From positions 62,001-126,000 of the forward strand of contig NZ_RDSK01000014.1 of NCBI RefSeq assembly GCF_003722075.1: a stretch of 64,000 nt of DNA. The letters run 5' to 3'. Shown here piece after piece: positions 15,668-56,878 of this stretch (position 1 is the first letter of the stretch; every line of letters starts with the position of its first letter). Under the pieces are notes generated by a model. That model had not been told where the DNA came from and ran no database searches. It saw only the letters and a list, made by a program, of their open reading frames with translations. This stretch comes from Methanohalophilus sp. RSK (GTDB lineage Archaea > Halobacteriota > Methanosarcinia > Methanosarcinales > Methanosarcinaceae). The translations under genes and the position numbers were made by a program.

Positions 15668-15865
15668 ATTCCTACTTTAATACTGTATTGCATATATTGT
15701 TTATTGAAAATATGATTCTTCCTTTTTTTGATAATTTTCGTTTATTAATCCGGTTTATTGGGTTTAATTGAGTTTTAAGCCTAATTAAATTCTTATTTAT
15801 AAAAATTAAACCATTATAAAGTTTTAAAATGCTTTATTTTTCTTTAATCTTTCCTGTTTTGAAAG

Positions 15866-15924
15866 TATATTTATATTCTCATCCGCCCAATATGCAATTG
15901 ATGACGATGCTAAATACAAGGAGG
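15866..15924 (+). promoter_or_regulatory. Promoter and ribosome site of the UAG-containing gene
   Basis: TATATTTATAT at 15866-15876 is preceded by the purine-rich GAAAG, giving a TATA/BRE arrangement with a transcription start expected near 15900. AAGGAGG at 15918-15924 is a near-perfect Shine-Dalgarno sequence 6 nt before the ATG at 15931. These elements sit before the signal peptide, so translation clearly begins upstream of the internal UAG. Confidence 0.6.
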
Positions 15925-15930
15925 ATTGAG

Positions 15931-17709
15931 ATGGATTTCAGAAAGATATTGATTTTTGTTCTGGTCATTGCAATGTGTGCAAGTATGTTTACAGCGGTTG
16001 CATTTGCAAAGCCAGATAATAATATGAACGGATAGGAAGGGGATTGTGCAGAATGCCACGATGATAACAGGGGCAATATGAACCCTGGCAATAATTCAAA
16101 CCCTCAAGCTTCTGCTCGTGACAAGGTCCCGGGACAAAGGGAGCGGATGAAGAATAATTATGAGAATTCCAGGCAAAATCTCCTGGATGTTAAGGACAGG
16201 GTCCATAATGGGCAAATTTCTGCTAATTCCGAAGAGGTATGCAATGTATCCAGTGTGTATCTCAATGACACGATCACCTACATGGTCACCCGCCTGTCCG
16301 ATACAAAGGAAGATTTCGAGGATAAAGGTGTACCAGAGGATTCCATTGAAAGAATTGATGAATACATCGGTCAACTTGAAGAGCAGCAGGAAAAACTCGA
16401 AGATGCCAATGACCGGGAAGAGCTTGCAGAAATTGCACAGGATGTACGTAAGGTCTGGCATGACGGTTCAAAGGACCTATACAAATTCAGGTCTCTCAAC
16501 GTCATGAACGGTATTGGAAATTACATTGATGAAGCCGATTCGATTTCAGAGCGTCTCGAGTCCGAAATAGAGCGTCTCAATGAAAGTGGAGTGGATACAA
16601 CCGATGTCGAACTAATGCTTGAGCGCTATAACACACTTATAGAAAATGCATCAGAATACCGTGAACTGGCCCTGGATGAGGAGCAAGGCAGCAGTGAATC
16701 CCTTGCCTACATGCAACAGGCAGTGGATGCTACACGTCAGGCCAACGATGTACTCCGTGACATACTGGAATTCCTGAAAGACCACAGACCGGGTTTTGCT
16801 AATCTTTCAGATGACACAAATGTCAGTGCCAATGGCAATGGTACAGCCGTGATTTCCGGGAATTTCGATATAAACCTCTCTGCAACAGATGCAAAGCTTG
16901 TTGTGAAGGATCTGGCAGGTGATGCAACCATAGAGATGGATGGGGAATATGAACGGATCACTCTCGAAGAATCCATGGGTAGAGGTACTCCTGCAGCAGT
17001 ATATCTTGACTTCACAGGAGATGCTCATATCAATGGCAGTCGTCTTACTATGATGGTTTCAGGGGGGAATATCTCCATTGATGCCACAGGTACAGGCAGC
17101 ACGGTGTTCACCGGGGAAGGAACCTATGCCACGGATTCTGAAACCATGGACTGGGCAGGAACCTATTCTACAGAGGATGAAGATTTTGATGATGAAGAAG
17201 AAATCGAGATTGAAGTAGCAATTGAAGGTGAGCAATCAGAAGTGAAAATAAAGTTCAATGAAACCGAGGATGAGTTTACTCTCAATACCACCGATCTGAA
17301 TGAAATCATATCTGAGATTGGTAACAGAACTTCATTGACAGATGAACAGATCGAACAGTATATGGAGATCGATGAGGGCGAAGATTTCGATGATGAAGAA
17401 GAGATCGAGGGCGAAGATTTCGATGATGGAGAAGAAATCGAGATTGGAGTAGCAATTGAAGGTGAGCAATCAGAAGTGAAAATAAAGTTCAATGAAACCG
17501 AGGATGAGTTTACTCTCAATACCACCGATCTGAATGAAATCATATCCGAGATCGGTAACAGAACTTCATTGACAGATGAACAGATCGAACAGTATATGGA
17601 AATCGATGTGGACGAACACTCCGTAAACAGTACAATGAATGTGGAAATCGATGAGGGCGAAGATTTCGATGGTGAAGAAGAAATCGAAAATGAGGCCCTG
17701 GAGGAATGA
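15931..17709 (+). CDS. Secreted acidic protein with in-frame UAG (pyrrolysine candidate) and CxxCH motif
   Basis: Read through UAG this is one 592-residue protein. Residues 1-26 are a signal peptide (MDFRKILIFVLVIAMC..., cleavage after AFA). Codon 35 (16033-16035) is UAG, and the frame then continues as EGDCAECHDDNRGN with a CxxCH heme-c motif at Cys39, Cys42 and His43. A Glu-rich coiled-coil region (about 55-290), a beta-rich region (about 300-410), and two near-identical acidic repeats follow. I do not recognise the family. An AGGGG four bases before the ATG at 16078 could permit internal initiation, but that product would lack the signal peptide. The alternatives are a pseudogene or a stop-codon error. 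The downstream lipoprotein gene overlaps its stop. Confidence 0.7.
17197..17608 (+). repeat. Intragenic direct repeat, 234-bp period
   Basis: Two 178-bp copies, 17197-17374 and 17431-17608, differ at only about four positions by my alignment. They encode the same 59-residue acidic unit (VAIEGEQSEVKIKFNETEDE and onward). The spacer between them and the tail after the second copy are variants of a shorter unit encoding EDFDDEEEIE. The near identity at silent sites points to a recent tandem duplication within the gene, or to gene conversion. Confidence 0.9.
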
Positions 17710-17714
17710 ATATC

Positions 17715-18008
17715 ATGAAAAAGTTCATGGCTTTGTTGTTTGTCTTGGTCATGTTTTCATTCCTGATGGTTTCGGGATGTACAGACCAGAGTGATTCGAA
17801 AGTGGAAAATGAAACTGCATCCGGACAGAGTGGCTCGGAAGTGGATAATGAAACTGCATCCGAAGATTCTGCGGAAGATATACTTGCACAGGAAGGTGCA
17901 GCTCTTACTGATGAGGAAATATCATCATTGGATGATGATCTCGCAGAACTTGAATCAATGCTAGAAAGTGTTGATAATGAATCCAATATTACTGTAGAGG
18001 ATATCTGA
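17715..18008 (+). CDS. Small acidic lipoprotein
   Basis: A 97-residue predicted lipoprotein. A hydrophobic leader ends in the lipobox LMVSGC, after which the mature chain is strongly acidic (Glu, Asp, Ser) with a repeated SEVDNETAS-like motif and a helical C-terminus. I chose the second in-frame ATG (17715) because GGAGG lies about 9 nt upstream. The first ATG (17706) overlaps the preceding stop as ATGA but has its ribosome site too close. It is translationally coupled to the UAG-containing gene, suggesting a shared surface role. Confidence 0.75.
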   Translation: MKKFMALLFVLVMFSFLMVSGCTDQSDSKVENETASGQSGSEVDNETASEDSAEDILAQEGAALTDEEISSLDDDLAELESMLESVDNESNITVEDI

Positions 18009-29094: not shown

Positions 29095-29523
29095 TTATAG
29101 AAGAGAGGTTGTTTCAATTTTAATGGGGATATGTTTGCCTGACTGGTAATCTTTGCTATATAGCCTTATATTTACTTTTGTTTGCGGGTTTGGTATTTTT
29201 ACTTCATGGGTATCTGTGATATTATCATCCAGGGTTACCTTGAATATAACCTTGCCTTTAGATCTCGGCAGTTTAAGCTACCAAGACCTTTCCTTTGAGA
29301 TATCCGTTTTACCTTCTAATTTGTATGTTTCCTTTATTATAGATATATTATTTGAGTCAAAAACTTCGATTACTGCAATGTGCTTCATCTCATCTTGATT
29401 ATGAACTGTGAATAAAAATTGGGATACGCCTGTATATATAAAAGGGATTAGGACAAAGAATGATATTAACAGAAAAACTGCTGCAAATCCTGTGGCAACA
29501 ATTAATTTTTTAGATTTTCTCAG
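29095..29523 (-). CDS. Membrane-anchored small protein with in-frame UAG (pyrrolysine candidate or pseudogene)
   Basis: Reading from a CTG at 29521-29523, which has GGAGG six bases upstream, gives a 142-codon frame ending in TAA with one UAG at codon 82 (29278-29280, minus strand). Residues 1-6 are basic, about 7-35 form a membrane helix (LIVATGFAAVFLLISFFVLI), and the rest is an extracytoplasmic beta-rich domain (HIAVIEVFDSNNISIIK before UAG, GKVIFKVTLDDNITD after it). Both sides look equally protein-like. The codon before UAG is Trp, and a TGG-to-TAG change would also explain the stop. The lack of ATG, GTG or TTG at the proper place is a second oddity. I do not know the family. Confidence 0.55.
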
Positions 29524-54902: not shown

Positions 54903-55832
54903 ATGGATCTCCAAAACCTCATTTCCAGAAAAAACCTTATTTTCGTAACAGTGACAGCATTCGGGATACTTGCAGTTTTGATAACTATTGGAATGCTGAC
55001 GCCCCTTGTGGTTCAATTTTTAACTGGTATGCAAATAAGTATGGATGCAACATATTTCAATAACAGGGCAGCACCGATTGCCGGTTTACTTGTAATCCTG
55101 CTCTGTGCCTGCCTGCTTGTCACCCATATATCCGGCAGGTATATTGGTATGCTGCTTGGAGGTATAGTTCTCTTGTCTGCACTTATGGCAATGTTTTCTC
55201 CTACCGGAGAACTGCTTGTAGACATTTCTATAATTCCCATGCTTGCCGTTTTTGCGGCATCTCTGTACCGGCTGGTTCATGTTACCAGAAAACGCCGTGG
55301 CAAATCCCATTTCAAGGGAATAGGTGCCCACATTATCCATATTGGAATTTTGCTGGTGATATTCGGTACCATTTTCAGTTCAGCAATGAAAGTAGAAGAT
55401 TCAGCTGTAGTTAGCATTGGTGAGGAAACATCATTTGAGAAGATTCCTTATTCTGTAAGTGTGATGGGTATGGATTCAAGTTTTGAAGGTACACCCTATG
55501 ACAATTATCCTGGTTCATCCTATACAACGGATGTTGGCCTTATAATTTCCAAAAACGGGAATGAGTTTGACAGGGGTACAGTTCGGTATATAACCGATAT
55601 AAAATGGAGGCAGACCTATACTTCTACTTACATTAACCGGGGGATCATGGAGGAAGTTTTTATTGCTCCCAAAGCCCTCGATGAAAAATCCGGGGAAGTT
55701 GACCTGTATCTGCGGGTAGTTCCATTTATCAGCTTTCTCTGGGCTGGTATTTACATAATGCTTGGAGGTATGTTAATACTGCTCCTTGGAAGTACAGTGC
55801 TACCAGATAATGAAAATGAGGTGGCCACATGA
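54903..55832 (+). CDS. CcmF C-terminal-half protein (cytochrome c maturation)
   Basis: A 309-residue membrane protein corresponding to the C-terminal part of CcmF. It has an N-terminal helix pair with the LTPLVVQFLTGMQISMDATY segment, equivalent to TLYPL...ISVGPPYFN in bacterial CcmF, three further helices, the GAHIIHIGILLVIFGTIF segment with likely heme-related histidines, and a periplasmic-type beta domain. A last helix closes it. Its stop overlaps the next gene as ATGA. The order is reversed compared with the intact bacterial protein: the C-half gene comes first. Confidence 0.8.
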   Translation: MDLQNLISRKNLIFVTVTAFGILAVLITIGMLTPLVVQFLTGMQISMDATYFNNRAAPIAGLLVILLCACLLVTHISGRYIGMLLGGIVLLSALMAMFSPTGELLVDISIIPMLAVFAASLYRLVHVTRKRRGKSHFKGIGAHIIHIGILLVIFGTIFSSAMKVEDSAVVSIGEETSFEKIPYSVSVMGMDSSFEGTPYDNYPGSSYTTDVGLIISKNGNEFDRGTVRYITDIKWRQTYTSTYINRGIMEEVFIAPKALDEKSGEVDLYLRVVPFISFLWAGIYIMLGGMLILLLGSTVLPDNENEVAT

Positions 55833-56878
55833 ATTTTGGAATGATTATTATCTGGCTGGCATTTCTGTTTGGTTTGCTTGCTACGGTCTATTCATACCTG
55901 GGTTTTCGCAGGAAAGATGAGAATTACCGGATACTTTCATTAAGGCTTGAAATTGCCTGTGCTGTTTTGGTCACAGTTGCTTCTGTCATGCTGATGTATT
56001 ATCTTTATGATGTAGCCGCGTTCTTTGAGTATGTTTATGCTCATTCCAGTCTTGATCTTTCCACTTACTATCGTCTTTCAGCTTTCTGGGCAGGTCAGGA
56101 AGGTTCTCTTTTGTTGTGGGCCTGGGCCATTTCGGTTATGCTTCTGGTTCTCAGGTATTCTTTCCGTTTTACCGAAGGCAATGTATTCATGATCACAAGG
56201 ATAGTGTCCCTGGGTATTCTTTCGGTATTCCTCATGCTGCTTGTACTTGACAACCCGTTTGCGGTATATTATTCAAAAGCCGGCTCTGTTCTGGTAAGCA
56301 ACTGGAATCCGTTTGTCCATCCCTATCACCTAACAGATGGGCAGGGCATGAATCCGCTGCTTCGCAATCCCTGGATGGCTATCCATCCTCCCATCCTTTT
56401 TTTGGGCTATGCAGCTTTTACTATTCCTTTTGCATCTACTATTGCTGGTTTGCTCCTTAATGACAGCAGCTGGCGCAAAATAGCCAATAATTGGATGCGT
56501 GTTTCCTGGTTACTCCTGACTGCAGGGATAGGTCTGGGTGGTTTCTGGGCCTATGAGGTACTTGGCTGGGGTGCATGGTACTGGAGCTGGGATCCGGTTG
56601 AGACCTCGTCGTTGATTCCCTGGATAACCGCGACAGCTTATCTGCATACAATATACGGCAGACAGGGACAGTTCAGGTTCCTGGCGCCAGCAATGGCTAT
56701 TTTATCATTTATACTTGTAATTTTTGCAACTTTTGTTACGAGAAGTGGTATGTGGGCCTCAGTCCATTCCTGGCAAGATTTCAATGCAGAAAGCCTCTTA
56801 ATAGGTATATTCCTGGCAGGAATTACGCTTGCGGGGACATCGCTGCTTGCAAAAAGGTATTTTGAAGAGCAGGACTGA
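55829..56878 (+). CDS. ccmF: CcmF N-terminal-half protein, heme lyase with WWD motif
   Basis: A 349-residue membrane protein matching the N-terminal part of CcmF/CcsA-type heme handling proteins. About eight helices are seen. The FWAGQEGSLLLWAWAIS segment and the Trp-rich WWD motif (WGAWYWSWDPVETSSLIPW) are intact, and a His in MAIHPPILFLGY and one in TAYLHTIYG are candidates for heme ligands. It ligates heme to apocytochrome c outside the membrane together with its C-half partner. Start ATG overlaps the stop of that gene. Confidence 0.9.
   Translation: MNFGMIIIWLAFLFGLLATVYSYLGFRRKDENYRILSLRLEIACAVLVTVASVMLMYYLYDVAAFFEYVYAHSSLDLSTYYRLSAFWAGQEGSLLLWAWAISVMLLVLRYSFRFTEGNVFMITRIVSLGILSVFLMLLVLDNPFAVYYSKAGSVLVSNWNPFVHPYHLTDGQGMNPLLRNPWMAIHPPILFLGYAAFTIPFASTIAGLLLNDSSWRKIANNWMRVSWLLLTAGIGLGGFWAYEVLGWGAWYWSWDPVETSSLIPWITATAYLHTIYGRQGQFRFLAPAMAILSFILVIFATFVTRSGMWASVHSWQDFNAESLLIGIFLAGITLAGTSLLAKRYFEEQD

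Follow-up and report, generated by a model that had tools for sequence, protein, structure and literature searches.

An in-frame UAG codon that separates signal peptide from body in a conserved, predicted secreted protein of Methanohalophilus sp. RSK: a candidate site of pyrrolysine read-through

A long reading frame of Methanohalophilus sp. RSK opens with a signal peptide, meets a UAG codon shortly behind it and then continues for several hundred sense codons. This raises the question of whether the UAG ends translation or is read as pyrrolysine and, if it is read, whether it has a role of its own. The locus lies in a stretch of 64,000 nucleotides, analysed at its full length and called the window below.

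One gene with a conserved body

The original prediction described an ATG at 15931, with AAGGAGG upstream of it, opening a signal peptide, a UAG at codon 35 (16033-16035) followed by 557 sense codons, and EGDCAECHDDNRGN as the first 14 residues past the UAG. All of this agrees with the sequence, in which the stop that closes the long frame is TGA (17707-17709). The features of the locus are listed here by their positions in the window; they were read directly from the sequence where no other basis is given.

15861-15884, + strand: TATA-like AT-rich block, AAAGTATATTTATATTCT and its neighbours, near-invariant in a six-species Methanohalophilus alignment; putative promoter
15918-15924, + strand: Shine-Dalgarno sequence AAGGAGG, kept in six Methanohalophilus species
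15931-16008, + strand: signal peptide MDFRKILIFVLVIAMCASMFTAVAFA, codons 1-26, with an N-terminus shared by five close relatives (L004-L008)
16009-16107, + strand: hypervariable linker containing the UAG and a CxxCH motif (alignments with close relatives)
16033-16035, + strand: in-frame UAG, codon 35, at about residue 9 of the mature protein; proposed pyrrolysine
16045-16059, + strand: CAECH, a motif of the CxxCH type and candidate site for one heme c
16108-17709, + strand: conserved body, with a helical bundle, a beta domain and an acidic C-terminal part (homology, AlphaFold, dN/dS)
17179-17616, + strand: C-terminal tandem duplication with a period of 234 bp, 1.9 copies and 96% match (repeat analysis)
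17706-18008, + strand: small lipoprotein-like downstream gene, whose start overlaps the stop of the UAG gene (ATGA)

The signal peptide would be cleaved after AFA. At the other end of the gene, the ATGA overlap is identical in all six Methanohalophilus species, and translation of the lipoprotein-like gene is presumably coupled to that of the UAG gene. The 234-bp tandem duplication in the acidic C-terminus is recent; its copy number varies among Methanohalophilus species.

In the five close Methanohalophilus relatives (L004-L008), promoter region, Shine-Dalgarno sequence, signal peptide and body form a single uninterrupted ORF. Because this ORF is unbroken, we consider the frame in RSK to be one gene and no chance junction of two frames, and two neighbouring genes that happen to share a frame were rejected on the same ground. 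A homology search with the part behind the UAG showed that 90 of the 101 Methanosarcinaceae genomes contain a homologue. Homologues that all end at this place, with nothing conserved downstream, would have spoken against the original prediction; what we found is a conserved body and relatives that have no stop there.

Since synonymous changes dominate in the body, it is maintained by purifying selection, with no marked excess of amino-acid changes in the UAG lineage, though a very recent loss would escape detection. Its dN/dS is 0.15-0.20 in pairs that include the UAG gene and 0.13-0.20 over all pairs, and the changes unique to one lineage number 13 synonymous and 9 nonsynonymous in the UAG lineage and 9 and 5, respectively, in its neighbour L004. 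Across the 557 codons that follow the UAG there is no second stop or frameshift.

No Pfam or NCBIfam family scored above cut-off for the body. A PDB sequence search returned helical-bundle-like matches only, and Foldseek gave no match with E < 0.001 against the PDB. For the fragment encoded by 16096-17184, AlphaFold predicted a bundle of long helices and, behind it, a beta domain, with a pTM of 0.63 and a mean pLDDT of 87. Judging by signal peptide and composition, the product would be an acidic protein that is secreted or located at the cell surface.

UAG as stop and as probable sense codon in the RSK genome

Absence of pyl genes, which would have undone the original prediction, is ruled out: profile searches of the RSK genome gave pylS and pylB above cut-off, a tRNA-Pyl with anticodon CUA is present, and our call of the machinery is based on these three hits (PylS, PylB and tRNA-Pyl(CUA)). 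The genome also encodes two mtmB genes with one in-frame TAG each, and one release factor gene, aRF1, above cut-off. UAG serves as a true stop as well, at the end of pylB, and a UAG-terminated pylB has also been described in other Methanosarcinaceae (PMC2933860, review). In RSK, the 39-codon extension past the UAG of pylB (L154:903-1964, minus strand) looks unlike PylB and, by eye, seems to run into the beginning of pylC, which is read in a different frame. As in-frame sense candidates and true UAG stops coexist, UAG is ambiguous in this genome. In M. acetivorans, an amber codon introduced into a reporter gene was read through at 20-30% although no element dedicated to this was present (PMC2933860), which makes it unnecessary to assume a special device here, and in M. 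portucalensis the pyrrolysine of MttB was confirmed by mass spectrometry (PMC4928046).

Further interruptions were sought in contig 1 and the window (377 kb, about 19% of the genome). For comparison we used genome G008, which we take to be that of M. mahii. Clean UAG interruptions occur in two of 201 ortholog pairs, namely in the codon-35 gene and in a gene for a Trm-G10-like tRNA methyltransferase; a few UGA interruptions are also present, and a sample this small allows no claim of an excess of UAG over UGA or UAA interruptions. Among 209 ORFs closely matched in M. mahii, UAG was counted as the terminator of six, the Trm-G10-like gene being one of the six.

In this second gene (contig 1, 71888-72940; L042:11888-12940; minus strand), the UAG is codon 254 and precedes the catalytic DPPYG motif. 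The M. mahii protein, 94% identical overall, has Gln there, and the residue is variable across the family; the UAG was absent at this site in the 20 other family genomes searched, all of which contain the gene. Obligatory read-through may be better supported by this gene than by the codon-35 gene. A glycosyltransferase-like gene (contig 1, 110213-111349; L044:10213-11349; minus strand) has a UAG followed by a 47-codon tail, and this tail aligns with other glycosyltransferases. In the window, a small frame at 29280 on the minus strand, MKHIAVIEVFDSNN, reaches a UAG after 36 codons and has 60 open codons behind it, possibly a further in-frame UAG.

Given the pyl machinery, a conserved gene under selection and a second conserved gene interrupted by UAG, the likeliest reading of codon 35 is that it is decoded in part as pyrrolysine. 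The broader claim of the original prediction, that pyrrolysine occurs outside the methylamine methyltransferases, is likely on the same evidence, together with the mtmB UAGs and the family-wide presence of the codon-35 gene.

The UAG site and the adjacent CxxCH motif

None of the approximately 50 homologues inspected in the alignment suggested with the original prediction has a UAG at the codon-35 site, which among them is exclusive to the RSK genome; we therefore rejected a conserved pyrrolysine site of the methyltransferase type. The linkers of the close relatives consist of MDRGNMxPNNTxxP-type repeats and cannot be aligned with the linker of the UAG gene. Around the UAG, Rfam gave no credible match to PYLIS or another known RNA element, and a 108-base segment starting at the UAG folds no better than shuffled sequences (z-score 0.38); neither test found an insertion element for pyrrolysine nearby. 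Because the UAG is absent from homologues, lies in a hypervariable linker and is accompanied by neither an RNA element nor a stable fold, it is probably neutral or nearly so. No conserved or programmed role was borne out for it, with no relative sharing the codon, a variable linker and no PYLIS-type element. A special significance of this UAG fails, and it looks like a chance mutation tolerated since the cell already decodes UAG. It has been argued that such codons evolve neutrally (PMC3639795).

The motif CAECH begins four residues past the UAG and is the only CxxCH of the protein. A secreted, possibly heme-bearing product, as originally proposed, is compatible with the signal peptide and this motif if the UAG is read through, but the "first heme Cys" of that proposal belongs to a single motif, which could hold at most one heme c. 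Among the approximately 50 homologues, CxxCH is found at the corresponding place only in the UAG gene and in L009, a homologue from a divergent congener (G041) that has YPDSSEDCSNCH there, including DCSNCH. CxxCH is thus, by these alignments, not a family feature. One alignment places the serine codon TCG of L009 opposite the UAG, and otherwise there is a gap; a single C-to-A change from TCG to TAG is conceivable. Common DNA ancestry with the CxxCH of L009 was considered and is only suggestive, the similarity being weak (shuffle P 0.04). We also asked whether the CxxCH segment derives from the repeat of the relatives, and no convincing DNA match was found beyond the flanking RGNM repeat.

Genes for c-cytochrome maturation are represented in the RSK genome by CcmF/CcmC-type matches, and the window itself includes the following:

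54903-56878: split heme lyase of the CcmF type, encoded by two genes that overlap (profile matches)

In this pair, the gene that matches the C-terminal half comes first, and the one that matches the N-terminal half follows downstream. The genome also encodes multi-CxxCH proteins, including an MmcA-like protein with six CxxCH motifs adjoining rnfC, and can probably make c-type cytochromes. Since such assembly genes exist, covalent attachment of heme c to CAECH is possible.

Read-through, its alternatives and known systems

We propose, with reasonable though far from complete confidence in the explanation as a whole, that a single gene encodes a secreted acidic protein widespread in Methanosarcinaceae, and that a recent change in the RSK lineage put a UAG into the unconstrained linker just behind its signal peptide. 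Supplied with pyrrolysyl-tRNA(CUA), the ribosome would read this UAG partly as pyrrolysine and partly terminate, yielding a discarded leader peptide of 34 residues and an exported protein of full length, whose mature form would have pyrrolysine near residue 9. The codon would be neutral or near-neutral, as in M. acetivorans Thg1. Insertion of pyrrolysine at codon 35 with partial efficiency is, taken by itself, probably the right reading; read-through, its efficiency and neutrality are what we infer from the evidence above.

A recent nonsense mutation, with a UAG that mostly terminates, read-through that is incidental and a gene heading to a pseudogene, would fit the confinement of the UAG to RSK, the presence of a release factor gene and single UGA interruptions that are about as frequent as UAG ones between RSK and M. 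mahii. We nevertheless regard it as unlikely, as the 557 codons hold no other stop or frameshift, the dN/dS of the body indicates no marked relaxation, promoter, Shine-Dalgarno sequence and coupled downstream gene are intact, and a cell with tRNA-Pyl suppresses UAG at least partly (PMC2933860). The UAG of the codon-35 gene is seen in one assembly, a draft of 18 contigs, and close relatives lack it, so that an error hiding a sense codon, such as CAG or the TCG that L009 has in the alignment, has to be weighed. A search of genome contigs for other strains yielded M. euhalobius and M. profundi only, and one of viral contigs yielded none. Such an error is quite improbable in an assembly that is 99.6% complete with 0.2% contamination and in a sequence otherwise intact around the UAG; this assembly also has in-frame UAGs in the Trm-G10-like and glycosyltransferase genes, which suggests that the pattern is biological.

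The original prediction suggested that UAG suppression could tie the export of a possibly heme-bearing protein to methylamine growth or pyrrolysine supply. The UAG would then be a programmed switch, and surface display of a monoheme protein would follow the supply of pyrrolysine while the cell grows on methylamines. The placement of the UAG between leader and body, the adjoining CxxCH, the split CcmF and the MmcA-like six-CxxCH protein beside RnfC would suit this reading, yet we find it very doubtful: no relative conserves the UAG, the site is hypervariable and lacks a PYLIS-like element, and the sole CxxCH is common only to L009, with the weak DNA match already described. Least credible to us is that the UAG is a real stop and that the body arises by internal initiation as a protein that is not exported. 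In-frame ATGs are available downstream at 16078 and 16147, but the former is without a good Shine-Dalgarno sequence (AACAGGGGCAAT), the latter has a badly spaced one, and homologues throughout the family keep the signal peptide within one ORF.

Partial read-through as pyrrolysine, which we prefer, makes the codon-35 gene a suitable place to test how liberally Methanohalophilus uses UAG as a sense codon: because the UAG lies between leader and body, export of the full-length protein directly reports read-through. Standard annotation would probably drop or truncate this gene. Together with the Trm-G10-like gene, in which read-through is needed for the catalytic motif, it suggests pyrrolysine decoding beyond methylamine metabolism. 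In the literature searched, we found no proteomic survey that covers archaeal UAG decoding across a whole genome, though such work may exist in other journals.

Among known systems, MtmB, MtbB and MttB share with our gene an in-frame UAG, and their decoding machinery is also that of the RSK genome; their UAG is conserved and its residue functional, whereas that of codon 35 is unconserved and lies in a linker. L009 has the same order of signal peptide, PD..., DCxxCH and body, but has no UAG, with serine TCG or a gap opposite it. In "Ca. Methanomethylophilus alvus", 16 non-methyltransferase proteins are predicted to contain pyrrolysine (PMC4153887). As in RSK, its in-frame UAGs are scattered, half of them in genes with UAG-less homologues, and UAG is rare as a stop (PMC4153887); it belongs to another archaeal order, and the share of UAG stops is slightly larger in our RSK sample. 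Likewise, the conserved gene for Thg1 (tRNA-His guanylyltransferase), which is no methyltransferase, has in M. acetivorans an in-frame amber codon peculiar to that species; this codon can be translated as pyrrolysine, which is dispensable for activity (PMC2933860). The RSK protein differs from it in being a predicted secreted protein and a candidate case, with its UAG in a linker near the N-terminus.
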